This document shows positions 3,677 through 59,031 of a stretch of 64,000 bases of DNA, one piece after another. This DNA comes from Roseiarcus fermentans (lineage in GTDB: Bacteria; Pseudomonadota; Alphaproteobacteria; Rhizobiales; Beijerinckiaceae): NCBI RefSeq assembly GCF_003315135.1, contig NZ_QNRK01000035.1, forward strand, positions 1 through 64,000, in the 5' to 3' direction. Each line of letters opens with the position of its first letter. Position 1 is the stretch's first letter. The notes beneath the pieces were generated by a model. That model had not been told where the DNA came from, did not search any database, and saw only the letters and a program-made list of their open reading frames with translations. The translations under genes and the position numbers were made by a program.

Positions 3677-3690
3677 GGCGCGAACAAGAA
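3677..3690 (-). promoter_or_regulatory. Dispersed transfer-gene element, copy 1
   Basis: Reads TTCTTGTTCGCGCC in the direction of the transglycosylase gene, 43 nt before its ATG. One of 17 copies in the window. Confidence 0.75.
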
Positions 3691-3920
3691 CGGCGAAATT
3701 CACGGTCGAGCAAGAAAAGTCCACGACCCCGGATGGGCGCGCCTCAATGCACCCTTCCCTGCTTGCGTGGGCGGGTTGGGGTGCGTTGGCTTTGGGCAGG
3801 CGGGACCGGCCCACGGGTGCGCGGCGCAGCCGGCGGTCGCGTTGAGGCTGGGCGCGCTTCAGCGCGCCACTTCGCCGTCGAGGCGGCGGGGCGAGCGCGC
3901 GCGCTCGCCCCGCGGTTCGG

Positions 3921-4253
3921 TCAGAAGCAGCGCACTCGCCGCTCGTCGTTGTCCCAGACACACGTATCGATCGTATCCGGCAAGACGACAGGCACGACCT
4001 TGTTGGCGTACCGGCAGATCACTTTAAGCGGTCGGATCGCGGCGTGCAGATTGTGCCACCGCTGCTCCTGCAATTTGCCGTCCAGGTGAAATGTCCCCGC
4101 GTCCGGCGAAATGTAACCCGGCGCAGGCATCCCTTGCCCTTGCTCGATGCTGATTGCCGGAACGCCACGATGACAAGGTTCGATTGCGAACGCCGCACTC
4201 GCCGAAAGACAGGTCGCCACGACCGCGACGCCCTTAACTATGCGTGACGACAT
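3921..4253 (-). CDS. Exported protein, possible STY0301-like immunity partner of the amidase
   Basis: The ATG at 4253 follows a GGGAG binding site and overlaps the end of the amidase gene by 20 bases, so the pair is translationally linked. The 110-residue product begins with a signal peptide ending near AAFA and has four cysteines after it (EPCHRG, KVICRYANK, DTCVWD, VRCF). The LKVICRYANK...LPDTIDTC pattern reminds me of STY0301-type periplasmic proteins, which I recall as neighbours of BPSL0067-type amidases; this recall needs a profile search. Inferred role: protecting the producer's own periplasm. The 230 bases downstream up to the element at 3677 show no gene. Confidence 0.65.
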   Translation of the reverse strand: MSSRIVKGVAVVATCLSASAAFAIEPCHRGVPAISIEQGQGMPAPGYISPDAGTFHLDGKLQEQRWHNLHAAIRPLKVICRYANKVVPVVLPDTIDTCVWDNDERRVRCF

Positions 4254-4962
4254 AGAATTTGCTCCCTGATTCATAGGAATTGCTAGTGGTCCAGGGTATC
4301 CAGCGGGTCCCGGCCGCCTGCCCAAGCCACTGATCCTCGACGAAAATGCCTTGGTCGCTTTGGCCGAGATAAATCGCCGTATGCGACTGCCCATAGGTGT
4401 TCGTGTATGTGCCGTCGCTGCCGAACGTCGCGATCACCGTGCCGACCGCGATGTCGGTCTCGCCCTCGACCTGCGCGCCGGGAGACCACGTCGAAGTGTA
4501 ACCGACGTCCGACGACGCCTGCGCGAGCGCGACGCATTGTCCCGTGCCGACGCTCTGACCCAAAAGGTCTGCATAGCCCGTCGCGATGATCGCGCCGGCA
4601 ACTCCAGAACCCGTGCCGCTATAGGAACCCAGGCTCGCGGAGCCAGAGCCCGACCCGCTCCCCGAGCCGCCGCCGATCGTCACGGCGTCGGCGACGCCGC
4701 CAGTGTCCGACAGGCCACCCTGCGGAAAGCTGAACGCGGGCAGGCCCGGCTCCGGAAAGGTCGGGTTGACCTGAACCGGCAGGCCGTTCGGCGACACGAT
4801 CGCCGGATCGGCCCAGCTCTCGCCTCCCGCGATCACAAGGCCAAGCCCGAGCGGCGCAAGCAGCGGCCAAAGCAACTGCGCCGATTCCCCTGTCGTCCGC
4901 CTGTCCGTCCGGGCGGCGCTCCCGCGCCGCCACAAGACAGGCGACTGGCATCCCGTTCCCAT
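4234..4962 (-). CDS. BPSL0067/CHAP-like amidase with shared N-terminal module
   Basis: Start at the ATG with an AGGGAGA binding site (242 aa). N-terminal basic region and hydrophobic export segment (about residues 29-47), then GLPVQVNPTFPEPGLPAFSF, nearly identical to the module in the 2752-3633 product, a Ser/Gly linker, then a domain with Cys in GTGQCVAL, WSPGAQVEG, GTVIATF and His in SHTAIYL. That Cys/His order fits BPSL0067-like NlpC/P60-CHAP amidases, which cut peptidoglycan peptides. The downstream gene overlaps and encodes an exported small protein. The regulatory element sits 44 nt upstream, as for the other hydrolase. Delivery through the Dot/Icm-like system is an inference. Confidence 0.75.
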   Translation of the reverse strand: MGTGCQSPVLWRRGSAARTDRRTTGESAQLLWPLLAPLGLGLVIAGGESWADPAIVSPNGLPVQVNPTFPEPGLPAFSFPQGGLSDTGGVADAVTIGGGSGSGSGSGSASLGSYSGTGSGVAGAIIATGYADLLGQSVGTGQCVALAQASSDVGYTSTWSPGAQVEGETDIAVGTVIATFGSDGTYTNTYGQSHTAIYLGQSDQGIFVEDQWLGQAAGTRWIPWTTSNSYESGSKFYVVTHS

Positions 4963-5006
4963 ATCCCGTCTCCCTGAACGTCCTGACGTTCAGGGTCGGA
5001 GACGAC

Positions 5007-5020
5007 GGCGCGAACAAGTA
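5007..5020 (-). promoter_or_regulatory. Dispersed transfer-gene element, copy 2
   Basis: Reads TACTTGTTCGCGCC toward the amidase gene, 44 nt before its ATG. Confidence 0.7.
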
Positions 5021-5082
5021 TCCCTTTATTCAGGGGCGCGGCGTGTCGGGAGGCGCGCTCCCCAAAAGGGAGAAGCGCCGCT

Positions 5083-5655: not shown

Positions 5656-5810
5656 GGCGGCCTCCAGTCGAACAGACCATGAACAATTAGCTGGGGTTCG
5701 GAGAAGGCGCAACACAAGATGTTGAGAAAAAGCAGGAGACGGACAGAAAATGGAGCGAGAGAGACGCATGGCGTTCCAGCTCATGGCCGTGCGGGCCCTC
5801 GGTCATCTGG

Positions 5811-5993: not shown

Positions 5994-6052
5994 CCGAGGG
6001 ACCGACGGCATGAGCCGAAGGCCCAGGGGGAGACTGAAAAGGGACTGAAGAC

Positions 6053-9803: not shown

Positions 9804-9817
9804 TTCTCGTTCGCGCC
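9804..9817 (+). promoter_or_regulatory. Dispersed transfer-gene element, copy 3
   Basis: TTCTCGTTCGCGCC, 46 nt before the ATG of the ParA-like gene. Confidence 0.8.
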
Positions 9818-9863
9818 GTGGCGCGGTCTCCTGTTGCGTCTCAACCTGAAAGGAAGACGCAAC

Positions 9864-12777: not shown

Positions 12778-12799
12778 CCTCCACTCCATACGAGGTGAC

Positions 12800-12813
12800 G
12801 GCGCGAACAGCGG
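12800..12813 (-). promoter_or_regulatory. Dispersed transfer-gene element, copy 4 (diverged left half)
   Basis: Reads CCGCTGTTCGCGCC, 22 nt before ATG 12777. The right half GTTCGCGCC is intact and the left half differs. Confidence 0.5.
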
Positions 12814-13361: not shown

Positions 13362-13375
13362 TTCTCGTTCGCGCC
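13362..13375 (+). promoter_or_regulatory. Dispersed transfer-gene element, copy 5
   Basis: TTCTCGTTCGCGCC, identical to copies 3 and 6, but 126 nt before the next start codon (13502), the longest distance in the set. Confidence 0.7.
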
Positions 13376-13501
13376 GTTGCCGCCCACGCTTCCTTCGCGG
13401 CCAAGGCAATCCCGCCTCGGCCGATCGTGCGGCGAAACCGCTCCCAGCGCTCTTGTCCGCTCTCATGATCGAGCGACAAGCCCGTCAAAAGGAACCCGTT
13501 T

Positions 13502-14302: not shown

Positions 14303-14316
14303 TTCTCGTTCGCGCC
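14303..14316 (+). promoter_or_regulatory. Dispersed transfer-gene element, copy 6
   Basis: TTCTCGTTCGCGCC, 45 nt before ATG 14362 of the relaxase operon. Confidence 0.8.
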
Positions 14317-14361
14317 GTGCGCCGCCAAACCCCTCGTCAGCCTTTTCCAGACCGGAGGTTC

Positions 14362-14734: not shown

Positions 14735-17700
14735 GTGCTCAACTTCGCCAAAGTCTCCGCCGCAAGCGAAGGCGCGCTGATCCGCGCCTATATGACCCAG
14801 GACAAGCCCGAGCCTGAGACCCTCAAGGTCCACGGCGTCGCCATCGATGGCCGGAATCTCGAAACCGGCGAGCGCCTGACCGCCTACTATACCGGCCGGG
14901 GCGAGCGGGCGAACTGGCGGCCGGATATGTCGCCACGCGTCGCGGCGGCGCTCGGCGTGGGCAAGCTCCGGGCGGACCCCCGCGACGATGAGCTCGACGC
15001 CCTCTTTGAGGCGAGGCGAGCCGACAACGGGGCTGACTGGAGCGAGCATGTTCGGAAGAATTCCGGCTTTGACTTCGTGTTCGCCCCCCACAAATCCGTG
15101 TCGCTTGCGGCGGAATTCGCGCCGAGCGAAGCCGAGCGGCTCATGATCCGCAACGCGATCCATGCCGCGAGCGACGATGCGCTCCGCTACGCCTCGCGAG
15201 ACCTCGGCGTCGCGAGGAAGGGGCATGCGGGCGAGAAAGGCTCCGAGCGCGGCGAGATCGGCTGGGTCACGTTCGCCCATGACGCCGCGCGGCCGACCCT
15301 TGCCGTCCAGAACGGTCCCGATGGGGCGACCTATCTCATGGACGCGCCGATCGCCGGAGATCCGCACTATCATCTCCACAATTTCATCCCGAACCTCGTG
15401 GTCACGGATGATGGAAGAGTCGGCTCGATCGATTCGAAGGCGCTGACCGCCCACAAGGTCCATGAGTACGGCGCGATCTTCCAGGCGCGGCTTGCCGACC
15501 GGCTCCGGGCGCTCGGCGTCCGGGTCGGGCTCGACGCCGATGGCGAAGCCGTCGTCGCTCTCGATATCCCGGAAAGCGCGGTTGCGACCTTTTCCAAGCG
15601 CGACCGCCAGGTGATCGGCGACGCCAAGGCTTATGCCAAAGAGAACGCCATGGAGTGGGACGAGCTCTCGCTCGAGCGCAAGAAGCAGCTCCTGCACGAA
15701 GCAAGCGCGGCCGGACGGCTCGGCAAGAGCAAGGACGAGGCGCAATCGGTCTGGCGGCAACAAGCGGCCGCCATTGGCTGGATGCCGAAAACCGTCCTCG
15801 ACGCGGCGGCGCCCGTGTTGCGGACGGGGGCCCAGCGCCATGAGGCGGCCTACGCTCTGGCGTCGGAAGCGCTCTCGGCGGAATTCCAGACGGCGGCGGT
15901 CCTCGACGCCGAGCGGCTGCGCGTCCATGCCGCCCGCGGCCTGATCGAGGCCGGGGCGACGGGCGGGCGGGATGATGTCGACGCCGTCGTGGATCTCATC
16001 GAGAAGCGCGGCTTCATCCATGACGGCAATTCCGTCGCTCTTGTTTTCGGCGTCCACGAAGGCAAAATCCGGTTCAGCCATACCGAGCAGCTGCGGATTG
16101 AGCGCGACGTCGCCGAGAAATCCAGGCTCGCGGCGCTCGACCGCTCCGACGCGCTCTCGGACGCTGCGATCCGGCGCGCGATGGAAGCCGTTGAGGCCGG
16201 GGATGCAGGAATCCGGTTTACGAGGGAGCAGCGGGCCGCCATCCATGCGCTGGGCGGCGGCGGCAAGCTCTCCCTCCTCACCGGCGTCGCGGGATCGGGC
16301 AAGACCACGCTCCTCAAGCCCCTGGTGGAGGCCTGGCACGCGGACGGACGAACAATCGTCGGCATGTCGACCGCATGGCGGCAGGCCGACGCCCTCAAGG
16401 ACGCCGGCGTCGACGAGACGTGGGCGCTCCAGCCGCTCCTCAACGCCATCGACACGGGTGAATTCCGCCCCGACGCCAAAACCGTCCTCGTTGTCGACGA
16501 GATCAGCCAGATCGGCCCTCGCCCGATGCTGCGCCTCCTCGAACTGCAGGCCGAGACCGGCATGACCATCAAGATGCTCGGCGACCCGGAGCAGGTCCAG
16601 TCGATCGACGCCGGCGATACGATCGCGCTCCTGAAGCGCGTTCTGCCCAAGACCGCCCTGCCCGAGGTTTTGACCGCCGTTCGCCAGAAGAACGACCGCG
16701 ACCGCAAGATTGCTTCGCAGTTCCGCGACGGCGACGCCGCGACCGCCTTCGCCATGAAGCGGGAGGACGGAACGGCCCGCCTCCTCGAAGGCGACTATGA
16801 TCAGGTCGTGCGCCAGATCGCCGACCTCTATATCGAGCGGGACGACGCCCTGAAGGCGCAGGATCCAAGCTACGGGGTCACGCTGACCACCCTCACCAAC
16901 GCCGAGGCCGCCGACATCAGCCGGGCGATTCGCGAGCGCCTCAAGGCCCGCGGGGAGATCGGCACAGACGAGGCGACCTACAAGGCCGTCGTCTATCGCG
17001 GCGACAAGCCTGAATTCTTTGATTTGGCCGTAGCCACCGGCGACCGGCTGCGCATGTATCGCAAGACCGTGGCCAAGATCGATGGCGAGCGCGCGACGAT
17101 CGGAAACAACGGCGATATTGTCGAGGTGGTCCGCAAAACGGGCGCCGGCCTTGTTCTTCGAAATGCGCGCGGCCAGACCGCTGAGATCGACTGGAAGCGC
17201 CTCTCGGACCAGAGGACCGGACGGCTCCTTCTGGGGTTCGGCCGCGCCTTCACGATCGACGCGGCGCAAGGCATGAGCACCAAAGGCGAGCACATCAACG
17301 CCTTGCCCCATGGAACCGGGGCCACGTCGGCTTTCAAGACCTATACGGCCGAGAGCCGGGCCACCGGCCGCACGCATACGCTGATTTCCAAGGCCGCGGT
17401 CCACGCCGCCGTCCAACGCTCCCGGGCGCTCGGCGACGTCACGCCGATGACCGAGGATGATTTATGGGAGCGCGTCGCCAAGGACGCCTCTGCCAAGCCC
17501 TACAAGGCGCTGGCGCTCGACCTCGCCGGTAAGGCGCATCGTCGCCACGACCAGGCGGTCGAGATGGGGCTTTCGTCGCATAACCAGGTCGAGAAGGCGC
17601 GAGCGCGGCCGGATGCAGGGGGCCAGATGAAGGCGGCTTACGAGATCGGCCTTGCGCGCGAGGCATTCACTCAGCAACGCGTCGCGCTCGAAACCATTGC

Positions 17701-17860
17701 CGAGGTCGCGTTCGAGCGCCTGAAGCAGGCCGCAGACCTTATCGCCGAACACGCGAGAGCCGTCGCCGCGGTCATTCGACTCCGGGCCGACGCGGTCGGT
17801 TCCGCTGAACCGCAACCTCCAAGTCCGCGTTCGCCATCCCCTAACGGTCCCAGCCTATAA
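14735..17860 (+). CDS. MOBF-family conjugative relaxase-helicase (TrwC/TraI type)
   Basis: 1041 residues from GTG 14735, one base after the preceding stop. N-terminal TrwC relaxase domain with the three-histidine metal site in DPHYHLHNF (His211, 213, 215) and candidate catalytic tyrosines near the N-terminus (RAYMTQD; TAYYTGRG). The second half is an SF1 helicase of RecD type with Walker A GVAGSGKTT (517-525), VLVVDEISQIG and TIDAAQGMS. It nicks at oriT, binds the 5' end and unwinds the strand for transfer. Its partner here is an I-type channel with DotL, an unusual pairing because IncI plasmids use MOBP relaxases. No frameshift or missing motif seen. Confidence 0.93.
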   Translation: MLNFAKVSAASEGALIRAYMTQDKPEPETLKVHGVAIDGRNLETGERLTAYYTGRGERANWRPDMSPRVAAALGVGKLRADPRDDELDALFEARRADNGADWSEHVRKNSGFDFVFAPHKSVSLAAEFAPSEAERLMIRNAIHAASDDALRYASRDLGVARKGHAGEKGSERGEIGWVTFAHDAARPTLAVQNGPDGATYLMDAPIAGDPHYHLHNFIPNLVVTDDGRVGSIDSKALTAHKVHEYGAIFQARLADRLRALGVRVGLDADGEAVVALDIPESAVATFSKRDRQVIGDAKAYAKENAMEWDELSLERKKQLLHEASAAGRLGKSKDEAQSVWRQQAAAIGWMPKTVLDAAAPVLRTGAQRHEAAYALASEALSAEFQTAAVLDAERLRVHAARGLIEAGATGGRDDVDAVVDLIEKRGFIHDGNSVALVFGVHEGKIRFSHTEQLRIERDVAEKSRLAALDRSDALSDAAIRRAMEAVEAGDAGIRFTREQRAAIHALGGGGKLSLLTGVAGSGKTTLLKPLVEAWHADGRTIVGMSTAWRQADALKDAGVDETWALQPLLNAIDTGEFRPDAKTVLVVDEISQIGPRPMLRLLELQAETGMTIKMLGDPEQVQSIDAGDTIALLKRVLPKTALPEVLTAVRQKNDRDRKIASQFRDGDAATAFAMKREDGTARLLEGDYDQVVRQIADLYIERDDALKAQDPSYGVTLTTLTNAEAADISRAIRERLKARGEIGTDEATYKAVVYRGDKPEFFDLAVATGDRLRMYRKTVAKIDGERATIGNNGDIVEVVRKTGAGLVLRNARGQTAEIDWKRLSDQRTGRLLLGFGRAFTIDAAQGMSTKGEHINALPHGTGATSAFKTYTAESRATGRTHTLISKAAVHAAVQRSRALGDVTPMTEDDLWERVAKDASAKPYKALALDLAGKAHRRHDQAVEMGLSSHNQVEKARARPDAGGQMKAAYEIGLAREAFTQQRVALETIAEVAFERLKQAADLIAEHARAVAAVIRLRADAVGSAEPQPPSPRSPSPNGPSL

Positions 17861-25309: not shown

Positions 25310-27709
25310 TCATGGCGCCGCCCCGTGAGACCGGGGCGCCGCCTCGTCGTCGGCTTCGACTTGAGCATCAGCCGTCGGCGCGTCTCCCGCCGACAGAAGC
25401 GCGCCATCAGCCCGAATATCCTCTGAGAGCGCCTCGATCTGCCGCACGATCTCGATCTCCCGCACGCGCTTTTGCGGCGCCCCGCCCGATCCGGAGGCCA
25501 CCTCGATCGCCTGCCCCGCCGCGAGCAGCGCCGTCGCCGCCGCACGGGCGCCAGCCCGCGACGCTCCCGTGCTCGTTTCGATGCTTTCGAGCGTCTCGCG
25601 CGCGGCCTCGGCTGGCTCCCCGACCGACGCTGAGACGGGGCCGTGAGGGGCTTGCGGAGGACGGCGGGCGGCGGCGGTCAGCATGGCTTCGAGCGGCGAG
25701 GCCGGCGCAAGCGTCTCGATCTCGTCGCGCGCCATCGGACGATCTTTCGCCGCCTCGAGCGCCGCCTCGACGCAGGCTTCACCCCCCTGCCCCGCGGCCG
25801 CCGCGTGCTGGAAGGCTCCCAGCATCGCGGCCAGCGTCGCCGAACGCTTGGTCTTCCCCGTCCCGAGTCCGCCTTCCAGAGCCTTCAGAACTGCGCCGAT
25901 ATGCTCGTTCGCAGCCTTCAGGGATTCGACGTCGGGCTGCGCCAGCGCCACGGGGCGGTTCAGCCGCATCGGCCCGCGCGTATCAATCTCGGCGTGAAAC
26001 AGCTTGGCGTAGATGCGCCGTCCGCCGAACAGGATGATCGCCTCGCCCTCGATCAGGCTCTGCAGATCGCGCCAGTCGACGCCCGCGACCTCGCGGACCT
26101 CGGCCGAGCGGGTTTCGGCATATTCGCCGGTCCCGCCGCCTTGATAGCTGGTCGCCTGGGTCACATAGGTCTTGCCGGCCGTGTCTTCGATCCATTGCCG
26201 GGTGCGATTGGCGTCCTGCTGCCGCATCGCGATCGTCAGGTTGGCGTTGCCGAACAGCGACTGGGTCTTTTCCCCGAGCCGCGCCCAGATCCCTGAGACT
26301 TCCTGAAAGCCGAGCCAGAACATGAAGTTGAGGCCCCGCCCCATGGCGAGCATGCGGTCCATGCCGCTCGTCGCGTAATAGGCGACCTCGTCGAGGACGA
26401 CATGGAACGGCGCCGAGCCCATCCCAGGCTTGTTGGCGACGATTCGCTCAGAGTCTCCCTCGAGGCGGGCGCCGAGCATCTGCGCCATCATGCCTCGAAG
26501 GGAAGCGACAACGATCTTGCCGAGCGCGGCCAGCCGTTCGTCCGAGCTTTCCAGCGCCGGCAGGTTCACGACGAGGATGCGCCGGTTCAGCACGACGTCG
26601 CGCATGTCGACGTCCGATTGCTCGACCTTGAAGATATGACCGAGCGAGACGCCGAGCAGTTCGAACGTGCGGGTAAAATAAAACTGGGCGAAGCCGTGCT
26701 GCTTCGAGGGCTCCTCGGTCTTCTGCTTGTTCCAGTCGAGGGTCAGATCATAGGAGGGCAATTCGCCGAGATAGGCTTTCAGCGGGTAGATGATGTCCTC
26801 GGGCATATTCGGGACCGGAATGTCCGTCTTCTCGCCGGTCGAGGGATTCCGGACCTCGAATGCGCGCTTCATCGCCACCTTCCAGATGCAGCGCAGTTCG
26901 AAGGCGAGACGGATCGTCTCGATGTTGAGCGGCACGCCCTTATGGTCGCGCATCCAGACGAGGACCGGCGCCAGCGTACCGACGAGGGCGACGGCGCGAT
27001 CGCGAAAAACCTGGTTGCTGTCCCCCGGCGCCGATTCCCCGAGCTGGCTCGACAGCATTTCGCCGATGGCGTCGGCATTGCCGACCGCGAAGGGATTGAA
27101 GGTGTTCGAGTCCTTGACGCCGGACGCGACCATGAAGTTGAGGCAGAGAACGTCATCCTCGCGGCCGAAGCGACGGGCGAGCGCCAGAACCTCGCCGTAG
27201 AGCTTGTTGTCCGCCTTGCCGTCGACCAGCACAAAGCCGGAGGCGTGGGTCAGCGCGTTCGCCAGGAATGACAGCAGCGCCGTCGTCTTGCCTGCCCCGG
27301 TGGTGCCCGGCACGGTCGCGTGCTGGCGGCCGTCCTCGGAGGAGATCCAAAGCTCCCTACCCTTGAGATCGTGGCCCAGATAGATCGAGCCTGCCGCCAT
27401 GCGCGGGCGGCGGCCGACCGGCGAGGGATAGTTCCAGTCCCTGATACCCGCAGTCTGCGGCAGGCGCAGCGGCAGCGTCACGCGACGGCTCATGACGATC
27501 CCGGCGTAGAGGAGCGAAGCCGGCGTCACGAAATTGACGAGCGCCGGCTCAACGAACATCGCCATGGCTCCCCCGGCGAGGACCACGCCCGAGAACTCGC
27601 TCATCATCGCCGACCACAGGCGGGTCGTGATTGGGCGGATGTCGCGCAGGCGTTGGGCGCCCGAGCGTTCGAACCGTTCCTGCGGCCCGACGATCTCCCG
27701 CTGCGTCAT
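25310..27709 (-). CDS. dotL: Type IV coupling protein, DotL/IcmO/TrbC type
   Basis: ATG 27709 follows GGAGGACGAGG; 799 residues. Two N-terminal membrane segments (about 40-70), Walker A PGTTGAGKTT (134-143), Walker B FHVVLDEVAYY, and conserved LGFQEVSGIW and AMRQQDANRTRQW segments. The C-terminal 200 residues are Ala/Glu-rich, where DotL of Legionella binds adaptors. This hexameric ATPase hands the relaxase-DNA complex to the channel. Its gene lies behind dotM and a small membrane protein, as trbA-trbC in IncI plasmids and icmP-icmO in Legionella. Confidence 0.93.
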   Translation of the reverse strand: MTQREIVGPQERFERSGAQRLRDIRPITTRLWSAMMSEFSGVVLAGGAMAMFVEPALVNFVTPASLLYAGIVMSRRVTLPLRLPQTAGIRDWNYPSPVGRRPRMAAGSIYLGHDLKGRELWISSEDGRQHATVPGTTGAGKTTALLSFLANALTHASGFVLVDGKADNKLYGEVLALARRFGREDDVLCLNFMVASGVKDSNTFNPFAVGNADAIGEMLSSQLGESAPGDSNQVFRDRAVALVGTLAPVLVWMRDHKGVPLNIETIRLAFELRCIWKVAMKRAFEVRNPSTGEKTDIPVPNMPEDIIYPLKAYLGELPSYDLTLDWNKQKTEEPSKQHGFAQFYFTRTFELLGVSLGHIFKVEQSDVDMRDVVLNRRILVVNLPALESSDERLAALGKIVVASLRGMMAQMLGARLEGDSERIVANKPGMGSAPFHVVLDEVAYYATSGMDRMLAMGRGLNFMFWLGFQEVSGIWARLGEKTQSLFGNANLTIAMRQQDANRTRQWIEDTAGKTYVTQATSYQGGGTGEYAETRSAEVREVAGVDWRDLQSLIEGEAIILFGGRRIYAKLFHAEIDTRGPMRLNRPVALAQPDVESLKAANEHIGAVLKALEGGLGTGKTKRSATLAAMLGAFQHAAAAGQGGEACVEAALEAAKDRPMARDEIETLAPASPLEAMLTAAARRPPQAPHGPVSASVGEPAEAARETLESIETSTGASRAGARAAATALLAAGQAIEVASGSGGAPQKRVREIEIVRQIEALSEDIRADGALLSAGDAPTADAQVEADDEAAPRSHGAAP

Positions 27710-28213: not shown

Positions 28214-28278
28214 CGCGTGACCTCATCTTTCATGAAGGGAGCGCCGGCGCGCTCATGGGCCAGAGCGTGCGGGCGCAC

Positions 28279-28292
28279 GGCGCGAACGAGAA
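28279..28292 (-). promoter_or_regulatory. Dispersed transfer-gene element, copy 7
   Basis: TTCTCGTTCGCGCC toward the 27731-28213 gene, 65 nt before its ATG and just behind the dotM stop. Confidence 0.7.
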
Positions 28293-33402: not shown

Positions 33403-33444
33403 GGTCACCGGGTCCCTTCTCGAAATGGGAGCCTCGTCGCCCAC

Positions 33445-33458
33445 GGCGCGAACAAGAA
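33445..33458 (-). promoter_or_regulatory. Dispersed transfer-gene element, copy 8
   Basis: TTCTTGTTCGCGCC, 42 nt before the dotD ATG, identical to copy 1. Confidence 0.8.
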
Positions 33459-38122: not shown

Positions 38123-38198
38123 GAGTTTGCTCCAGGGTTTGAATCAGAGGGTCGATTGCGTTCCGCCTTGCCCTCGGGAGCCAAGGTTCGCCGCCTGC

Positions 38199-38212
38199 GG
38201 CGCGAACAAGTG
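38199..38212 (-). promoter_or_regulatory. Dispersed transfer-gene element, copy 9
   Basis: CACTTGTTCGCGCC, 76 nt before the dotP GTG and downstream of dotE; an internal promoter is implied. Confidence 0.6.
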
Positions 38213-40567: not shown

Positions 40568-40615
40568 CGAGCCATCTCCCAAGCGAGATCATGAGTCCCG
40601 AGGGTGACGGCGCAC

Positions 40616-40629
40616 GGCGCGAAGACCGA
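40616..40629 (-). promoter_or_regulatory. Dispersed transfer-gene element, copy 10 (variant)
   Basis: Reads TCGGTCTTCGCGCC, with G to C at the tenth core base counted from the right, 48 nt before the dotF ATG. The core TTCGCGCC and spacing are kept. Confidence 0.55.
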
Positions 40630-43544: not shown

Positions 43545-43566
43545 GGGCTGCAGCCTCAGGGGTCAC

Positions 43567-43580
43567 GGCGCGAACAGGAA
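43567..43580 (-). promoter_or_regulatory. Dispersed transfer-gene element, copy 11
   Basis: TTCCTGTTCGCGCC, only 22 nt before the dotI ATG. The following 284 bases to 43864 hold no gene. Confidence 0.65.
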
Positions 43581-43864: not shown

Positions 43865-44890
43865 TCAGGCCAGCGCCGTCACTTCGCAGCAGCTGCGTTC
43901 GGCTTTGCGAGCCTGGAATTTCTTGGTGCCGAATTCCCGGCAGGTCGAACGGTTTCCGCCTTTCGCCTTGCACCACCAGAACGAGCGATTGAGTTCGGAG
44001 CATGTGCGCAACGTCGCCCCGAGACGTTTCATCGCCTCGGCCGCGCGGCGCTCGACGGCGCCTTCGTCGTATTCGCTGATCATGTCGCGACGATCGCGCA
44101 CGATCTGCAACCGCGAAATCCGGTTGTTGACCGCCGACTCGGTCAGACGCACGCCAAACTCGACCAGCATGCGCTCAGCGATCGCCGCGGCTTTCAAACC
44201 CGCAAAGCCGAGGATGGAGAACCGCTCGTCCTTGTCCTTGTCCCGGCCAAGCACCCACTTGACGTCGACCGGGAACCGCACACGCGGATCCATCTCGGGA
44301 ATAACCGGCAATCGGCCGTGCGTCGGACTGAACAGCCGCGCGACGATCGCGCCGACGTCGAAGGTTGGCTTCCACGGCAAAGCGGTCGCCCGACATTCGA
44401 CGACTGGACGTTCCGTAAGCCGCTTCCGGTCTCGCACGCCAAGGCCGAGCCAGCGGCGTTTGCCATGGACGCTCGATTGGGACCGACCGAGGGTCGCGGC
44501 AATCGACGCCGCCGAGACATTATCGAGCCAGAGCGCGATCAGGAGACGCACATCCCAGACCGACCACGGCTTCGCCGAGGCCGGCCGGCGAAGCGGCTTT
44601 TCCGCCGGCTCCGGAAGCCCCAGGGACGCTGCTCGCTCGCGGACTTCCTCTTCGTCGAGCCCCAGATAGAACGAGAGCGCCGCCACCCCGTGGCCGGCGC
44701 CCGCCATTCCCGAAAGCAAGAGGTCGAGCGTCGCCACATGCCCTCCCGGATCGCCCGCGGGGCGCATCAATCGCCGAGACCACTTCGGGGGAACGAAAAC
44801 CGGCGACTCCTCGGAACAGCCGGCTAGCACGGTCTCAACGCTGACGATAGAGATCGGAGAACGATCGGCGAAAGTATGGACGGCGAGCAT
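43865..44890 (-). CDS. Putative DNA-binding regulator with GcrA-like segment and Cys-rich tail
   Basis: 341 residues from ATG 44890 (CGAGG upstream). Residues 108-155 (WSVWDVRLLIALWLDNVSAASIAATLGRSQSSVHGKRRWLGL) resemble the GcrA-type DNA-binding helix set; a similar helical unit may occur earlier (LSFYLGLDEEEVRERAASLGL) and later (KAAAIAERMLVEFGVRLTESAVNNRISRL). The tail has five cysteines (TCSEL, WWCKAK, STCREF, SCCEV) that could bind zinc. No named family recognised. It sits beside the dotI operon and is a candidate to bind the shared element. Confidence 0.65.
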   Translation of the reverse strand: MLAVHTFADRSPISIVSVETVLAGCSEESPVFVPPKWSRRLMRPAGDPGGHVATLDLLLSGMAGAGHGVAALSFYLGLDEEEVRERAASLGLPEPAEKPLRRPASAKPWSVWDVRLLIALWLDNVSAASIAATLGRSQSSVHGKRRWLGLGVRDRKRLTERPVVECRATALPWKPTFDVGAIVARLFSPTHGRLPVIPEMDPRVRFPVDVKWVLGRDKDKDERFSILGFAGLKAAAIAERMLVEFGVRLTESAVNNRISRLQIVRDRRDMISEYDEGAVERRAAEAMKRLGATLRTCSELNRSFWWCKAKGGNRSTCREFGTKKFQARKAERSCCEVTALA

Positions 44891-45390: not shown

Positions 45391-45891
45391 TCAGCCTTCT
45401 TCGGGGGGGTTGGCTTTCCGCTGTCTTCCCCTCTTCCGAACGACATCCGGGTCGCGTTCGCCTTCGGCCGGGCGCGGCTCTTCCTGCTCCTTGCGCTCCG
45501 CATACGCTTGCATGAAGTCCTCGAAATCGTTGGCAAAGCGGGCAATCTCGTCCGTGCGGCGGCGGAGGTGATCCACGGCCTTCTCCAGATTCGCCGCAAG
45601 ACGCACGATCGCGCTGTCCATGGCGCTTTTCGAACTGCCGATCCCCTCAAACAGATCCGACACAGGAACACCGAGGGCCTTCGCGATCTTGACCAGCACG
45701 AGCAAGCTGACATTACCAACGCCGGCCTCGATCAGCCCAAAATGCGGCCCCGATACGTCGGCGATGCTGGCTAGTTGGCGCTGGCTGAGTCCGTGCTGCT
45801 CGCGCAGCCGCTTGATCTTTCGCCCTAACGCTCCTTGCGCCTCGATAAACGCCTCGCTGTTCTCAAAAGTGCCCCCTTCACGACGCGTCAT
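45391..45891 (-). CDS. XRE-family transcriptional regulator
   Basis: 166 residues. Helix-turn-helix at about 22-77 (LGRKIKRLREQHGLSQRQLASIADVSGPHFGLIEAGVGNVSLLVLVKIAKALGVPVSDLF), then a helical segment (VRLAANLEKAVDHLRRRTDEIARFANDFEDFMQAYAE) and a charged tail. XRE regulators on plasmids often repress transfer genes. It lies between the dot block and the plus-strand transfer operon, so control of one or both is plausible. Confidence 0.88.
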   Translation of the reverse strand: MTRREGGTFENSEAFIEAQGALGRKIKRLREQHGLSQRQLASIADVSGPHFGLIEAGVGNVSLLVLVKIAKALGVPVSDLFEGIGSSKSAMDSAIVRLAANLEKAVDHLRRRTDEIARFANDFEDFMQAYAERKEQEEPRPAEGERDPDVVRKRGRQRKANPPEEG

Positions 45892-46034: not shown

Positions 46035-46048
46035 CCTTCGTTCGCGCC
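46035..46048 (+). promoter_or_regulatory. Dispersed transfer-gene element, copy 12
   Basis: CCTTCGTTCGCGCC, 37 nt before ATG 46086. Confidence 0.7.
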
Positions 46049-46085
46049 GCAGCGCTCTACCGCCTGCAGTGCGATGGAGGATATC

Positions 46086-46520: not shown

Positions 46521-46534
46521 ATCTCGTTCGCGCC
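46521..46534 (+). promoter_or_regulatory. Dispersed transfer-gene element, copy 13
   Basis: ATCTCGTTCGCGCC, 45 nt before ATG 46580. Confidence 0.75.
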
Positions 46535-46579
46535 GCGATGCGCCAGGCTCGCCTTCATCATCTTGATGCAGAGACCGCC

Positions 46580-50215: not shown

Positions 50216-50229
50216 GTCTCGTTCGCGCC
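50216..50229 (+). promoter_or_regulatory. Dispersed transfer-gene element, copy 14
   Basis: GTCTCGTTCGCGCC, 44 nt before the dotA ATG. Confidence 0.75.
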
Positions 50230-50273
50230 GTCATCCGGCAGCCTCGGATAATCCGCTAGCCCCGAGGCCGCCC

Positions 50274-54913: not shown

Positions 54914-54966
54914 TTTGGACGCCGATCCCCCGCCTCAGGGGTCACTTTTCCACGCCGGATCACAGC

Positions 54967-54980
54967 GTGGTCTTCGCGCC
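54967..54980 (+). promoter_or_regulatory. Dispersed transfer-gene element, copy 15 (variant)
   Basis: GTGGTCTTCGCGCC, 41 nt before ATG 55022; same GGTCTTCGCGCCG variant as copy 10. Confidence 0.55.
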
Positions 54981-55021
54981 GATCGTCCTGAAGATGGGCT
55001 CCGGATCCCAAGGAGCCCATC

Positions 55022-55333
55022 ATGAAACCCCTCTATCCGCTCGCCCTCGTCCTCGGCGCCATGACTATGACCGGCTGCGCGCAGGGCAACCTTCGCACGC
55101 CCGGCAGCTACGCCGCCCTCGCCTCTCCCCCCGTCCGAAATCCTTGGTACGACCCCTACGCTGCCTATGGCTCCTCCGACGCGATCTGGCGGCCGCCCGT
55201 CTACGACCTTCAACGAACGATCGTGAAGCCGGTCGAGCCCGCTTCGCAGGCCTCACGCCCCGACTACGAGGGGGCGGAATGGGCGACGGGGGCTGGCGGA
55301 GGATCGACGCTACGGCCTCCCGGCACTTTCTGA
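55022..55333 (+). CDS. Small lipoprotein of the transfer region
   Basis: 103 residues; AAGGAG before the ATG. Lipoprotein signal with lipobox MTMTGC (Cys19), then a Pro/Tyr-rich stretch (SPPVRNPWYDPYAAYGSSDAIWRPPVYDLQRTIVKP) and a Gly-rich end. Outer-membrane anchoring likely. Its element copy at the canonical distance suggests it belongs to the transfer regulon despite lying beyond the ISL3 element. No family recognised. Confidence 0.75.
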   Translation: MKPLYPLALVLGAMTMTGCAQGNLRTPGSYAALASPPVRNPWYDPYAAYGSSDAIWRPPVYDLQRTIVKPVEPASQASRPDYEGAEWATGAGGGSTLRPPGTF

Positions 55334-55411: not shown

Positions 55412-55936
55412 TCAGCGCGGCCAGAAGCCGCCGGGCGCGCTGAGATATTCCATCACCGTGACCTTGCGACGCATCCGGATCTGGTAGTTCTCGAGCCCGA
55501 ACCGGAACGCCAGCAGGAAGAAGACCGCGCAGGCCGGCGTGAACTGCAACGCGGTCAGCGTCGCATTGGCGGTCCACGTCATTGTCATGAGCCGGTAGAG
55601 CCAGCCAAGAAAGAACAGCGCGCCGAGCCCGAGAAAAATCCAGGCGTTGCGAGCCGTCGACCCTTGCCGAACGGCGAGCGCATCCTCGAACGCCGCGCGC
55701 CGCTGGCCATGCAGAAACCCAGAGGCGTCGAGATCGAACGCGCCGGTCTCATCGAGCCGTATGCGCGAGGCCCCTGCCCGTCCGCCGGCGTTGAGATCGT
55801 CGAAATCCCGGCGGATCGCAGCCATGCTGTCGTCGATCCGGAGGAAGCGCCCGGGTGCGAATGCGGCGCGCCCCATGCGGCGAAAAACGCCAAGCGGTCG
55901 CGCATCGCCGCCCCGATCCTCAGCGCGCGGAGACAT
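55412..55936 (-). CDS. Membrane protein behind the DsbC-like gene
   Basis: 174 residues; its start overlaps the end of the upstream DsbC-like gene by 17 bases. Two membrane segments near the C-terminal half (NAWIFLGLGALFFLGWLYRL; TALQFTPACAVFFLLAFRFGL) and a C-terminal motif (RMRRKVTVMEYLSAPGGFWPR). The N-terminal 95 residues are cytoplasmic and basic. TraX-like or other IncI accessory membrane proteins have similar topology, but no clear match was found. Confidence 0.7.
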   Translation of the reverse strand: MSPRAEDRGGDARPLGVFRRMGRAAFAPGRFLRIDDSMAAIRRDFDDLNAGGRAGASRIRLDETGAFDLDASGFLHGQRRAAFEDALAVRQGSTARNAWIFLGLGALFFLGWLYRLMTMTWTANATLTALQFTPACAVFFLLAFRFGLENYQIRMRRKVTVMEYLSAPGGFWPR

Positions 55937-57050
55937 TGTGCGCTCCCTCGACCTCGGCGATCAAAGCCTCCCAGCTCTTCGGTATGCCGTCGATCTCTCC
56001 CGCCGTCCCATCCGACTTGCGCCAGACGAGTGTCGGCGTGCCCTTGAGCCCAATCTCTTCGGCGATTCGGTTGTTCTTCTGCAGAAGCGCGGGGGCCTCT
56101 TGCGACGCGGGTGCCCGAAAACTCTGATGATCCCACGCTTCCGCCATGCGCGCCGGGTCCCGGCTCAACAGAGACTCCGCCGCCGGCGTGCTTTGGCCGT
56201 TCGTCTCGTAGTCCAGGATCGAAATCGGAACGATCGCGAGCTGGATGCGCCCGGCCGCCACGTAGGGTTTGAGCTCGTCGAAGGCGCGCACCGAGTAGCT
56301 GCAATAGGGGTCGAAGATCATCCACAACCGCGGCGCGGCCGGATCGCCATTGGTTCCGAAGGCCGTATGCTCGACGCCGAGCAGCGCGTCGGCCTTGGCC
56401 GCGACTTCGAGCGTCTTCGATCCTTCCTTCTCGACCACCATGGTCGGGACTGCGCCGTCGATCTTCGAAACCTGCTCGCGCGTCAGATTCTTGCCCGTGG
56501 CGTCCCACATCACCCCGGCGATTGTCGATTGCCCGTCCGGCGTCACGTAGAGCACCTGGAACTCCTGGCCGTTGCGCAGATAGAGGCCGCGGAGCCCATG
56601 GATCTCGCCGAGCTCCTTCACCTGTCCCGAGGCGAGGGTCATCAGCTTGTCGACCGGAAGATCGAGCTGCGGGCCACCGACGACCACCTGGCCGTCGGGG
56701 GCGATCTGCAGGATCATGAACTGGTCGCCGCTGCGGGCGCTGACGGATCTCAGCCCGTGCGCTTCGCCGAGATCCAGAAGCTGTGCGCCGGTCGCAGCGA
56801 TGTGCTTCAGCACTGGAACGGTCTCGACGTCGACCGGGGAGGCAAGCGCAAGTGGTGGTTCGCTTTGGCCGTCATTCGCGAAACGCGCGCCCGACGGAAC
56901 CGACGGTTGCGCCGCAGGGGCAGTCCCAGGCTCGCTTTGGCCGCTCCGAACAACGCCGCCGTCATTGCTCGCGTCGCCTGGACCGGCGAACGCCGGCGTT
57001 GCAAACGCGACGAGACTGACGCTCATCGCGATGAGGAAATGTCTGGGCAT
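55920..57050 (-). CDS. Periplasmic DsbC/DsbG-like thioredoxin-fold protein (TrbB-like)
   Basis: Start at ATG 57050, 46 nt behind the element; 376 residues with a signal peptide (LIAMSVSLVAFATPAFA). A repeated N-terminal part (LLDLGEAHGLRSVSARSGDQFMILQIAPDGQ and VKELGEIHGLRGLYLRNGQEFQVLYVTPDGQ) is followed by a thioredoxin-fold domain with FDPYCSYSVRAFDEL and GLKGTPTLVW (cis-Pro). The active site reads CSYS instead of CxxC, so it cannot form the usual disulphide alone. IncI plasmids carry a DsbC-like trbB in their transfer region. Confidence 0.8.
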   Translation of the reverse strand: MPRHFLIAMSVSLVAFATPAFAGPGDASNDGGVVRSGQSEPGTAPAAQPSVPSGARFANDGQSEPPLALASPVDVETVPVLKHIAATGAQLLDLGEAHGLRSVSARSGDQFMILQIAPDGQVVVGGPQLDLPVDKLMTLASGQVKELGEIHGLRGLYLRNGQEFQVLYVTPDGQSTIAGVMWDATGKNLTREQVSKIDGAVPTMVVEKEGSKTLEVAAKADALLGVEHTAFGTNGDPAAPRLWMIFDPYCSYSVRAFDELKPYVAAGRIQLAIVPISILDYETNGQSTPAAESLLSRDPARMAEAWDHQSFRAPASQEAPALLQKNNRIAEEIGLKGTPTLVWRKSDGTAGEIDGIPKSWEALIAEVEGAHNVSAR

Positions 57051-57096
57051 GGGCTGAAACCTCCAATCGTCGGAAGCGCGACGCTTAAGAGGGTCC

Positions 57097-57110
57097 GGCG
57101 CGAACGAGAA
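57097..57110 (-). promoter_or_regulatory. Dispersed transfer-gene element, copy 16
   Basis: TTCTCGTTCGCGCC, 46 nt before the DsbC-like ATG. Confidence 0.8.
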
Positions 57111-57123
57111 TTCCTCTCTCCAA

Positions 57124-57921
57124 TCAGCCGACAGAACGGCGAGGCATCGGCGAGTCTCTCCCGTGAAGTCGACGATAAGCGAGGTAATCGAAGTCTCGCA
57201 GGTAGGAATCCTGCAACGCGAAAAGGCAGTCCATCGCGTTGAAAAAGTCCAACAGGTCGCTGAATATTTTTCCCTTCGCCCTGAGACCAACAGTCGTCAT
57301 GGTTTCATAGCGCGCCACGCTCCAGACAGACTCGTGCAGCTCGGCCCACGCCATTGAGAGTGAGGAGCCGTCGCGAAGTTCGTCTAATCTTCCCGCTTCC
57401 TCGCTCTGCTCGACACAATCCCATCGCGCTTCGATCGCGGCCGTTTGCTCCTGGACCCGCTGGCACAAGGCCCAGAGCTCCGGCTCCAGAGCCCTCAGGC
57501 ATTGCTCCCCGTCGCCGTCTTGAGCGAGCGCGCGAGCGCACTCTTCCATGTACTGCGGGGTCAAAACGACCCCCACCTCGCCTTCCGACAACAGAGACGC
57601 TGTCATAGCCACTTTCAACAGGAGCTCCTGGATCGTTGGCGCGGCCGCGTCGACGATCCTCCTCGCGAGTTCTGCTCGCTTGCGCCAGAGCGCGTCTATG
57701 TCGTCGGTCTGATGCGAGTGGCCCTGCACCGCCTCAATGTGCTTCAGACGCCACGTCACCACCACGTATTCGTAACAGCTGCGACAGACCGGGCCCTGGT
57801 TTTCCCAACCTCGGGACGATTGCTGGGAATCGTCGCCATACGAAGACCCGCAACCAAAGAGTTCATCGCCTCGAAGCATGTCTGGCCCCATGTTCCCGAA
57901 TATAATCCGATGATAGTCCAC
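57124..57921 (-). CDS. Hypothetical protein (up to 265 aa)
   Basis: The start is uncertain: GTG 57921 has a site only two bases away, and ATG codons 10 and 14 codons in are alternatives. The N-terminal part has a possible zinc motif (CGSSYG...CRSCYEY); the rest is helical and acidic (RIVDAAAPTIQELLLKVAMTASLLS; EECARALAQDGDGEQCLRALEPELWALC). No membrane segment. No element copy upstream. The 278 bases between it and 58200 show no gene. Function unknown; base composition is slightly less GC-rich than neighbours. Confidence 0.55.
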   Translation of the reverse strand: MDYHRIIFGNMGPDMLRGDELFGCGSSYGDDSQQSSRGWENQGPVCRSCYEYVVVTWRLKHIEAVQGHSHQTDDIDALWRKRAELARRIVDAAAPTIQELLLKVAMTASLLSEGEVGVVLTPQYMEECARALAQDGDGEQCLRALEPELWALCQRVQEQTAAIEARWDCVEQSEEAGRLDELRDGSSLSMAWAELHESVWSVARYETMTTVGLRAKGKIFSDLLDFFNAMDCLFALQDSYLRDFDYLAYRRLHGRDSPMPRRSVG

Positions 57922-58199
57922 GTCTCCCGTAAGTCAAAAACGCACTTAACCGTGTATAAACAACGGCCTCAGTACCCGCATTGCGATATGTTGCATTGTC
58001 ATATGGACCGCCACACCCAATACAACTCGACAAGTGTATGTGGGCCGCGGCACCGTACTGACGACTGACCTAACATAGTGCGCCGCACTATGGAATCCTT
58101 CGGTCACAAAAAACACACAAAAAATGCGTCGAGTCTCTCAAAAGAACTGGTAAACAGTGCGTGCGGCGTGCCTCGTGCGCGATCGCCACGCCCCGGAGA

Positions 58200-58970
58200 T
58201 CACGATTCCACCCACGACTCCAACTCCTGGACTCCAGCAAACGCTTGGAGCTCGTCGCCCGGTCGACAAGGAGCGTCACGATGCGCGACGGCGTATTCCA
58301 GATCCTCTTGAAATTCTTCGTAGGTGCTCTCGACCAACAGCTCCGAGTCATGAGCCTGCCGAACAAGCGGCGCAAGATCGGTCAGCGCCAGGCGAGAAAC
58401 CAGCTTCTCCCATCCCGACCAGATCAACGACTCCTCTTCGTCACGCGAAAGTTTTCCAAACGCCTGTCGCGCAAAATCCGCCGCAACCGTTCGATCGAGT
58501 TTTCCCTCGAGCGCAATCAGCGTCAGCGCGTGCCATTGCCAGAAGCGAACGGACCGGTCGGCGCCGCCATCGAGGATGATGTCGAAAATGACCTGCGGGT
58601 CGCCGTCGTATAGCGACGCCATGATTCGATAGCCCGGCTCCTCGAGCGCCGGCTCGCCGAGAAGATTATCGTGGCTGACCCAGGGAAATCGCATCAAGCG
58701 CGCGAACGGACGATACGCTGCTCTTTCACGCCAGTCCGCGAGCAGGAAGACGCCAAAGAACAGCGGCGAGGTCGCGTTCAGGAATCGTTTCACCTTGGCC
58801 TTTGGGAATCCTGCGGCATCGAGGTTCTCGATCTCTGCGACTGCTTGCGCCAACTTTTCCAGCAGAAGCACACCGACCTCGGAACGCTGCGCTGACGCAG
58901 CCTCAAGCGCCTCTCCGGGCCAACGGTCATGGCCTTGCGACAAGACCTTCAGGATTTGCGACGGCGTCAT
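58200..58970 (-). CDS. DUF1186 family protein under the transfer element
   Basis: 256 residues: MTPSQILKVLSQGHDRWPGEALEAASAQRSEV, FFGVFLLADWRERAAYRPFARLMRFPW, YRIMASLYDGDPQVIFDIILDGGADRSVRFWQWHALTLIAL, SLIWSGWEKLV, with the pattern of DUF1186 (helical repeat) proteins. The C-terminal SEC-C zinc motif found in some members is absent. The element lies 47 nt upstream, the same spacing as for channel genes, so it belongs to the apparent transfer regulon; a secreted substrate or accessory role is possible. Confidence 0.75.
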   Translation of the reverse strand: MTPSQILKVLSQGHDRWPGEALEAASAQRSEVGVLLLEKLAQAVAEIENLDAAGFPKAKVKRFLNATSPLFFGVFLLADWRERAAYRPFARLMRFPWVSHDNLLGEPALEEPGYRIMASLYDGDPQVIFDIILDGGADRSVRFWQWHALTLIALEGKLDRTVAADFARQAFGKLSRDEEESLIWSGWEKLVSRLALTDLAPLVRQAHDSELLVESTYEEFQEDLEYAVAHRDAPCRPGDELQAFAGVQELESWVES

Positions 58971-59017
58971 GGCGATTCGTTCCTTTCTCGCGTTCGTCGT
59001 CGCTCATCTCCGATGCC

Positions 59018-59031
59018 GGCGCGAACATGAA
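59018..59031 (-). promoter_or_regulatory. Dispersed transfer-gene element, copy 17
   Basis: TTCATGTTCGCGCC, 47 nt before the DUF1186 ATG. Confidence 0.7.

Follow-up and report, generated by a model that had tools for sequence, protein, structure and literature searches.

A two-part promoter with a plasmid-specific element ahead of the transfer genes of Roseiarcus fermentans, and a GcrA-like protein as its putative reader

The window, that is, the whole stretch of 64,000 nucleotides analysed here (contig NZ_QNRK01000035.1 of Roseiarcus fermentans, positions 1 to 64,000), carries markers of a type IVB (MPF_I) conjugation system: DotI, DotH, DotD, DotA, a relaxase and a coupling protein. A short element, GTTCGCGCCG, is dispersed through this region. 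It occurs 17 times on the two strands of the window, against 1.7 copies expected (dinucleotide shuffles gave a mean of 1.70 and a largest value of 6), and the estimate of fewer than one exact 10-mer by chance, made in a sequence-only reading of the same DNA, was slightly low. The element itself is real and placed as that reading had described: 15 exact copies lie upstream of transfer-region genes and are oriented into them, and two TTCGCGCCG variants, the claimed GGTCTTCGCGCCG ones at 40615 (minus strand) and 54969 (plus strand), are likewise upstream of and directed into such genes. The remaining two exact copies of GTTCGCGCCG (2952 and 29107, both on the minus strand) are inside called genes, so that the rule that the element always stands ahead of a gene holds for the sites collected earlier and not for every exact 10-mer. 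The whole genome contains 275 copies of GTTCGCGCCG in 6.79 Mb, which makes the window about 6.5-fold enriched. Non-coding DNA 25-140 nt upstream of called window genes contains 26 TTCGC cores, none of them before ssb or the genes named moaA, aio and rep, in agreement with the reported absence of the element there. The 17 window sites discussed below and listed in the table are the set defined by exact TTCGCGCCG. A gap of 37-48 nt to the start codon was counted at 11 of them with the start codons used here and at 12 in the earlier reading, whose names for dotD, dotI, dotA, BRO-N and the relaxase agree with Pfam or NCBIfam matches; the ParA-like gene gave no match in either collection and dotP none in NCBIfam, and dotF and the DsbC-like gene stayed below the NCBIfam cut-off.

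Table. Predicted promoters, their target genes and candidate regulators in the window. A+18, A exactly 18 nt past the first T of TTCGC; T+22, T four bases past that A.
Feature	Position	Strand	Gene or target	Details
Promoter	3662..3690	-	2752-3633 gene	TTCTTGTTCGCGCCG, A+18, T+22; coordinates span element to -10; earlier called a cell-wall hydrolase, no Pfam match at E 0.001
Promoter	4992..5020	-	4234-4962 gene	A+18, T+22; BPSL0067 family (NCBIfam NF033857)
Promoter	9804..9832	+	9864-10544 gene	Exact element, no A+18, T+22 present; earlier called ParA-like, no Pfam or NCBIfam match
Element	12785..12813	-	12115-12777/12789 gene	A+18, no T+22; core to ATG 30 nt; second core nearby at 12902-, likewise with A+18
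Promoter	13362..13390	+	BRO-N gene 13502-14212	A+18, T+22; 134 nt to ATG; Pfam Bro-N
Promoter	14303..14331	+	Relaxase operon from 14362	A+18, no T+22
TrwC-type relaxase	14735..17860			In relaxase operon; Pfam TrwC
TraD/TraG-like coupling protein	25310..27709			Downstream of 27731-28213 gene; PF12696
Promoter	28264..28292	-	27731-28213 gene	A+18, T+22
Promoter	33430..33458	-	dotD 32926-33402	A+18, T+22; Pfam DotD
Promoter	38184..38212	-	37697-38122 gene	A+18, T+22; earlier called dotP, no NCBIfam match
Promoter	40601..40629	-	dotF-like gene 38798-40567	GGTCTTCGCGCCG variant, A+18, T+22; weak NCBIfam DotF match, below cut-off
Promoter	43552..43580	-	dotI 42915-43544 and genes behind, dotH 41963-42865	A+18, T+22; dotI ATG 30 nt past core (predicted +2); Pfam DotI, DotH
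Candidate reader	43865..44767	-		300 aa, three GcrA-like helix-turn-helix units; directly upstream of dotI
XRE-type helix-turn-helix protein	45391..45891	-		Rival reader or repressor; Pfam HTH_3
Promoter	46035..46063	+	46074-46490 gene	A+18, no T+22
Promoter	46521..46549	+	Operon starting near 46580	A+18, T+22
Promoter	50216..50244	+	dotA 50274-52637	A+18, T+22; NCBIfam DotA/TraY
Promoter	54967..54995	+	Small ORF 55022-55333	GGTCTTCGCGCCG variant, A+18, T+22
Promoter	57082..57110	-	DsbC/DsbG-like gene 55920-57050	A+18, no T+22; DsbG-like, below NCBIfam cut-off
Promoter	59003..59031	-	58200-58970 gene	A+18, no T+22; Pfam DUF1186

The sites contain a second, -10-like block, which went unnoticed in the earlier reading and yet is their strongest feature. 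A+18 is present at 16 of the 17 window sites (p ~1e-11), the single exception being 9810 on the plus strand, and at 3 of the other 26 TTCGCGC sites of the window; T+22 is present at 12 and missing from five. When the TTCGCGCCG rule is dropped, GCCG is found in 10 of the 11 upstream cores that have both A+18 and T+22 (the exception is 37644, minus strand). In the genome as a whole the two-part pattern has 36 matches, 19 of them on two plasmid contigs, and the other 17 are close in number to a reversed-pattern control (16). The arrangement TTCGC-N13-ANNCT fits a predicted -10 of the sigma70 type, and on this count the element would span roughly -32 to -20. The two sigma70 -10 features, A-11 and T-7, are thus present in the window, and the T is kept at 65 of 73 sites of relatives; a TTGACA-like -35 is not seen, apart from a partial TT at -35/-34 at 9 of the 17 window sites. 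The predicted +1 lies, to within a base, 11 nt past the conserved A and 29 nt past the first T of TTCGC. Because a purine occupies that position at just 3/17 window sites (9/17 one base later), the exact start is uncertain for the window; in Acetobacteraceae a purine, mostly A, is found there in 25/28 sites, and in ten plasmids or loci dotI has its ATG at the predicted +1 or +2. An Rfam scan of the window gave nothing at the gathering threshold. Separately, the 62-nt stretch from the element onward has a folding mean z of -1.07, with a few strong local hairpins.

The same two-part promoter precedes the same genes in related elements of Beijerinckiaceae-type bacteria and Acetobacteraceae. In eight related plasmids, A+18 accompanies 59/77 upstream cores against 149/657 control cores. 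Among 68 further DotO loci, many of which are close kin and hence not independent, core and A+18 were found before dotI in 54/56, before dotF in 20/21, before the 37697-type gene in 41/43 and before dotD in 46/54 placeable starts, and for all four genes the count of A peaks at offset 18. Methylosinus trichosporium departs from this pattern (A+18 in just 3/9 candidate cores, with the peak not at offset 18), and a search of viral contigs for DotO relatives found none. A distinct spelling over positions -3 to +9 marks each of the ten plasmids in the comparison, and the plasmid-specific information is concentrated there (z 4.8-13.8 at the variable positions); beyond +9, in a stretch that takes in spacer and -10, the plasmid signal reaches a z of at most 2.0. 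Even the sister plasmid in the same genome spells the element differently, C35 and C12 differing at +7 (C versus A/G). The relatives' sites in this comparison were picked by A+18, as were the C12 sites (12 of 21 cores), so A+18 is no evidence there; the evidence is the spelling and T+22, which was not a selection criterion. The Komagataeibacter core was fixed by eye as [AG]GTCGCA, and its difference at position 0 is therefore a matter of definition. Taken together, these comparisons of sequence show a putative two-part promoter with fixed spacing, conservation across plasmids and a private spelling in each.

The likely reader of the element is the GcrA-like protein encoded at 43865-44767. It matches Pfam GcrA (PF07750) with 29.2 bits against a cut-off of 26.9, its family profiles match the GcrA structures 7ye1 and 5yiu (PDB), and its AlphaFold model has three confidently predicted helix-turn-helix (HTH)-like blocks, which are detectable repeats; a Foldseek search with the whole model gave no match at E 0.001. 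The family was found in 56/56 testable loci, with a Pfam GcrA match at E 0.01 for just 14 of 35 regulators. GcrA, the cell-cycle regulator of Caulobacter, is likewise alphaproteobacterial and has a homologous HTH, but it is a protein of 173 aa with a single DNA-binding domain and a sigma-interacting domain, whereas the candidate has three HTH-like blocks in 300 aa and would be tied to one transfer regulon. The C-terminal sigma2-interacting domain of GcrA was not detected in the candidate by a sequence test, which a diverged domain could escape, and the Pfam match ends at profile position 97/155; the candidate has a hairpin domain at its C-terminus. Since ATTCG resembles the GcrA consensus as given in PMC7987155 (YGAKTCG), a methylation-dependent site was considered; it was rejected as a general rule, just 2/90 sites (0/17 in the window) overlapping GANTC, the methylated target of GcrA. 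The lack of a detected sigma-binding domain and the sites other than GANTC indicate that the protein is not a GcrA orthologue. When 385 genomes of the class were searched with the regulator profile, scoring no more than five candidates per genome, 108 of them gave a match in addition to the regulator's own. These matches did not exceed about 51 bits and mostly covered the HTH2 region, and they are therefore probably GcrA itself; full-strength copies were found in the regulator's own genome only. Covariation between element spelling and the regulator was measured on the 30 of 35 plasmids or loci with at least two sites each. Partial Mantel values were 0.43 and 0.31 for the first two HTH units, but the control genes scored alike (dotI 0.44, dotD 0.33, the 37697-type gene 0.45), so that covariation does not single out the regulator and is not counted as proof. 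No link to spelling was seen for HTH3 or for the C-terminus, both of which align poorly, and within the 16 Acetobacteraceae loci the HTH2 link was gone (partial 0.03).

The reading that we favour, with moderate confidence, takes the element for the upstream half of a host sigma70 promoter that depends on an activator, the activator most likely being the 43865-44767 protein. Housekeeping sigma70 RNA polymerase of the host would use a promoter that lacks a good -35 and combines a weak -10 (xANNCT, with A-11 and T-7 kept) with a plasmid-specific recognition sequence at about -32 to -20. The N-terminal GcrA-type HTH units would bind the element, and the protein would keep the polymerase at the poor -10, or remodel it there, independently of methylation; GcrA does so at methylated promoters. 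The element before the regulator gene is at background (4/65 against 6% in random sequence) and would thus not start the chain, which may instead run from host sigma70, possibly restrained by the XRE protein, to the activator and on to the transfer regulon. A TTGAC-type sigma70 pattern is enriched before the regulator gene (9/65 against 1.3% in random sequence), with no match upstream of the window's own copy. From sequence comparison we infer the start at the predicted position, the binding of the element by this protein and the activation.

The neighbouring XRE-type protein at 45391-45891 could be the reader instead and either activate or repress the transfer regulon. Its family adjoins the regulator in 46/52 loci and its two versions on the sister plasmids are strongly diverged, with 36% identity, but we regard this as unlikely. 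No XRE gene was found by tblastn in 6/52 loci (L097, L111, L113, L139, L142 and L145), where a very divergent one could be missed, and five of these six retain the element before dotI; moreover, the link between XRE HTH and spelling is weak (partial 0.13, p 0.09), and the element is non-palindromic, which is unusual for sites of dimeric XRE proteins. Three options were first offered for the element, namely a regulator site, a piece of an alternative-sigma promoter and a conserved 5' mRNA end, and it is the first, within a sigma70-type promoter, that the data favour. The constant spacing of the two conserved blocks and their clear promoter geometry would also suit the -35 and -10 of an ECF-like sigma factor, a reading rendered improbable by the centring of the element near -26 rather than -35, by the retention of sigma70 A-11 and T-7, and by a start-to-start distance from TTCGC to ANNCT of 18 nt, where promoters of the sigma70 family have roughly 22-23 nt. 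In addition, the annotation of eight stretches of 26-43 kb from relatives includes no sigma factor, and one host sigma cannot explain two spellings on two plasmids of one genome. It is equally improbable that the same GcrA-like protein represses, the element being an operator inside ordinary sigma70 promoters. The position between -35 and -10 and the partial TT at -35/-34 (also in 6/12 sites of the sister plasmid) suit an operator; against it, this TT is found in 0/11 Lichenicola and 0/11 Roseomonas sites, the poor -35 and GC-rich -10 (xANNCT) would leave the promoters weak unaided, and the candidate family resembles an activator. Very improbable, lastly, is a conserved leader motif at the 5' end of the mRNA, judged so on 5' UTR folding and a search for upstream sigma70 promoters: the element does lie on the sense strand and roughly 50 nt ahead of many start codons, but it is in fixed phase with a -10-like block, dotI start codons fall at the predicted +1/+2 as noted above, a TTG[AC]C-type promoter is found within 104 nt upstream of the element in 0/17 cases (a weak point, random windows having just 0.5%), and predicted 5' UTR folding is not special (mean z 0.12 in 68 targets, -0.15 in 108 controls, p 0.22).

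The promoter with its putative GcrA-like activator can be set beside several known systems. AcaCD and SetCD are master activators of conjugative elements, and with them, as with GafA of RcGTA as described, the proposed arrangement shares one element-encoded activator for a dispersed transfer regulon. The protein families of these three are not known to be related to the candidate reader, and their sites are of a type located further upstream, unlike an element between -35 and -10. MerR-type activators do act within the -35/-10 spacer, at palindromic sites and with long spacers, a position that is shared here by a non-palindromic element. GcrA acts with sigma70, and its footprint, according to the cited accounts, can overlap the -35 (PMC3667746, PMC7403470). 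GcrA homologues of the phiCbK phage group also place a GcrA-family protein on a mobile element; they are proposed in PMC3556154 to act on host replication genes, whereas the putative targets here are the element's own transfer genes, through a private site. The four regulatory motifs described with the published TSS set of Methylosinus sporium 5 (PMC12403871) do not include this element. A literature search found no regulator for these alphaproteobacterial type IVB conjugative plasmids, and one for an enterobacterial IncM plasmid.

More broadly, and with somewhat less confidence than in the activator itself, it is possible that a class of GcrA-type activators with three tandem HTH units, free of methylation, enables sigma70 at promoters nearly devoid of a -35, each conjugative plasmid having a private site, so that two near-identical systems in one cell could be switched separately. 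If true, a plasmid group of methanotrophs, Roseomonas and acetic acid bacteria would have a single switch that acts through a single site on a clear regulon, and mobile DNA would have turned a cell-cycle module that reads methylation into a plasmid activator that works without it. The 30 plasmids or loci compared would form a natural series of changes in protein-DNA specificity to decode, and the private spelling would suggest a way for co-resident plasmids to escape cross-talk.

The window covers the first 64,000 bases of contig C35, which is 72,595 bp long in a 6.79-Mb genome of 90 contigs. A type IVB (MPF_I) conjugation system is encoded in the window, where Pfam and NCBIfam gave matches to DotI, DotH, DotD, DotA/TraY, a TrwC-type relaxase and a TraG/TraD-type coupling protein. 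The nearest DotO proteins belong to plasmids of Methylocella, Methylocapsa, Methylosinus, Lichenicola, Roseomonas, Beijerinckia and acetic acid bacteria. A second, similar system is present in the same genome on the sister-plasmid contig C12; DotO and DotI of the two systems are 90% and 91% identical, whereas the regulators discussed below are only about 58% identical. Separately, a 93-aa ORF at 33698–33979 shares 99% identity with a C12 copy near 80885, and matches to this stretch occur on several further plasmids, one of them under an IS1182 transposase.

The sequence GTTCGCGCCG occurs 17 times in the window, against a shuffle mean of 1.70. The sequence-only reading had placed this element always ahead of genes, which holds for its 15 exact copies, upstream of genes and co-directional with them, but not for the two remaining occurrences (2952 and 29107, both on the minus strand), which fall within called genes; its two variants were recovered as further upstream sites spelled GGTCTTCGCGCCG. 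Alignment of these 17 upstream sites on TTCGC revealed a second block, absent from that reading: an A 18 nt after the first T (A+18) in 16/17 sites (p = 1.1e-11), with C+21 and T+22 in 12/17 each, the exceptions being one site without A+18 and five without T+22. Among the remaining 26 TTCGCGC sites of the window, A+18 was found in three and A+18 plus T+22 in none. If the A and T are −11 and −7 of a sigma70 −10, the element would lie at about −32 to −20 and transcription is predicted to start 29 nt past the first T. Since the first T lies 49–56 nt from the start codon in 11 of the 17 sites, leaders would be about 20–27 nt long. The predicted +1 is a purine in only 3/17 window sites (9/17 one base later), and therefore the exact start there is uncertain. 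Before the gene at 12115–12789 there are two TTCGCGCCG cores 95 nt apart (12807 and 12902, minus strand), and which of them is used is ambiguous because the 12902 core has A+18 too.

The two-part arrangement is conserved in relatives. Stretches of 26–43 kb around dotO were compared in eight named plasmids, counting as upstream those TTCGC[AGT] cores ([AG]GTCGCA for Komagataeibacter) that lay in non-coding DNA with an annotated gene 25–130 nt downstream. A+18 accompanied 59/77 upstream cores versus 149/657 other cores of the same stretches, and offset 18 was the commonest position for A among offsets 10–29 in seven of the eight plasmids, the exception being M. trichosporium (A+18 in 3/9 cores). 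A DotO-alignment scan of genome contigs then gave 68 loci, in which [TG]T[CT]GC with A+18 was sought before dot genes; among placeable gene starts it was found ahead of dotI in 54/56, dotF in 20/21, orthologues of the gene at 37697–38122 in 41/43 and dotD in 46/54, and together with T+22 in 53, 19, 23 and 44, respectively, counts that are not independent events because the loci include many nearly identical relatives from Komagataeibacter or Gluconobacter. In dotI cores, A stands at offset 18 in 56/69 and in at most 23 at each other offset from 12 to 25; in dotF cores offset 18 (21/29) is closely followed by offset 17 (17/29). At the predicted +1, the 28 Lichenicola, Roseomonas and Komagataeibacter sites (L055, L057 and L058) have a purine in 25 and strongly prefer A (20/28), compared with A in 1/17 window sites. 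The dotA promoters of L055 (near 7700) and L057 (near 7970) contain an inverted repeat, ATCCTCGCAGG ... CCTGCGAGGAT, with one mismatch in L057, which starts at the −10, extends toward the start codon and may serve as an operator or form a hairpin in the leader.

The alternative that the element acts within the mRNA is argued against by the predicted leaders, which show no extra folding, and by the start codon of dotI. In the window (43544), C12, Methylocapsa, Beijerinckia and six further loci, a dotI ATG coincides with the predicted +1 or +2, 29–30 nt past the core (beyond the window and C12: L052, L056, L096–L098, L100, L123 and L150; for L096 and L150 the first in-frame ATG was used, not the BLAST-aligned start). 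A sigma70 pattern further upstream was found at 0/17 window sites, which weighs little given its frequency of 0.5% in random windows. With the ATG at the predicted start, these Rhizobiales plasmids or loci may produce leaderless dotI mRNA; this position was not seen among the Acetobacteraceae compared.

The spelling of the element varies between plasmids. Mutual information between plasmid and base, over 90 sites from ten plasmids, was high across positions −3 to +9 (z 4.8–13.8, the nearly fixed core excepted) and slight at −6 (z 3.2), and from +10 onward, including the spacer and the −10, z did not exceed 2.0. C+7 is present in 17/17 C35 sites versus 1/12 C12 sites, although that spelling was the selection rule for the C35 sites; without this rule, 10 of 11 upstream C35 cores with A+18 and T+22 keep it. 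A universal −10 joined to a plasmid-specific box suggests two readers, the host polymerase for the former and a plasmid-made protein for the latter. In the host genome, GTTCGCGC-N11-ANNCT occurs 36 times, 19 of them on the two plasmids (8 on C35, 11 on C12); the 17 elsewhere compare with 16 for a reversed-pattern control, and thus the rest of the genome shows no clear excess.

Consensus spellings of the plasmid-specific box and location of its candidate readers
Feature	Position	Strand	Spelling or remark
Window			TTGTTCGCGCCGT
C12			CTGTTCGCGC[AG]
M. tundrae			GTTCGCGC
Methylocapsa, Methylosinus			ATTCGCGCA
Lichenicola			CCGTTCGC.CC
Roseomonas			CCGTTCGCACC
Komagataeibacter			GTCGCATGAT
Candidate reader (regulator)	43865–44767	minus	directly upstream of dotI; Pfam GcrA above cut-off
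XRE-type HTH protein	45391–45891	minus	rival reader

The regulator was present in 56/56 loci with 1.8 kb or more of sequence ahead of dotI, and the neighbouring XRE gene in 46/52 with 2.5 kb or more. Family profiles of 10 and 35 members match two Caulobacter GcrA structures, 7ye1 (E 5.7e-8 and 1.6e-9) and 5yiu, in match lists that also contain unrelated repeat proteins aligned to the first HTH block. An AlphaFold model (35 sequences, mean pLDDT 82) predicts helical HTH-like blocks at 7–48, 70–107 and 177–219, followed by a helix and a beta hairpin; Foldseek with the whole model gave no match at E 0.001. Profile comparisons (HTH2 vs HTH3, E 1.6e-9, probability 96%; HTH1 vs HTH2, E 2.2e-5, probability 76%) indicate that the blocks are repeats of one another. 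In the host genome, further GcrA-family matches lie at C6:201188, C9:174616 and C42:64982, besides the best, on C53 (153 bits). Upstream of the regulator gene itself the element shows no enrichment (4/65 vs 6% at random), while a TTGAC-type promoter does (9/65 vs 1.3%; none in the window). In Roseomonas L057, upstream of 12845, this gene is preceded by forward and inverted GTTCGCACC copies without the spaced A, which might reflect autoregulation. Partial Mantel tests over 30 plasmids or loci linked spelling to HTH1 and HTH2 of the regulator, but likewise to the controls (dotI, dotD and the 37697-type protein), so that the regulator is not singled out and the link is to be taken as shared ancestry until shown otherwise.

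The usual sigma70 promoter of a methanotroph relative is given in PMC12403871 as TATAHT and TYGMSV with a 17-nt spacer. By comparison, the plasmid promoters retain just A−11 and T−7 of the −10 and little of the −35, and are therefore expected to be weak on their own. They are best read as promoters that the GcrA-like protein would activate from inside the spacer. This protein does not qualify as GcrA proper, since no sigma-interacting domain was detected in its sequence, it has three HTH units and its putative sites are not GANTC. Sigma70 promoters, GcrA-type domains and element-encoded activators are already known, and literature listings on GcrA with conjugation, plasmids or type IV secretion, on GcrA-like proteins and on promoters of this plasmid group yielded no such regulon. 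What looks new is the combination, in which a GcrA relative with three HTH units works free of methylation on sites private to each plasmid.
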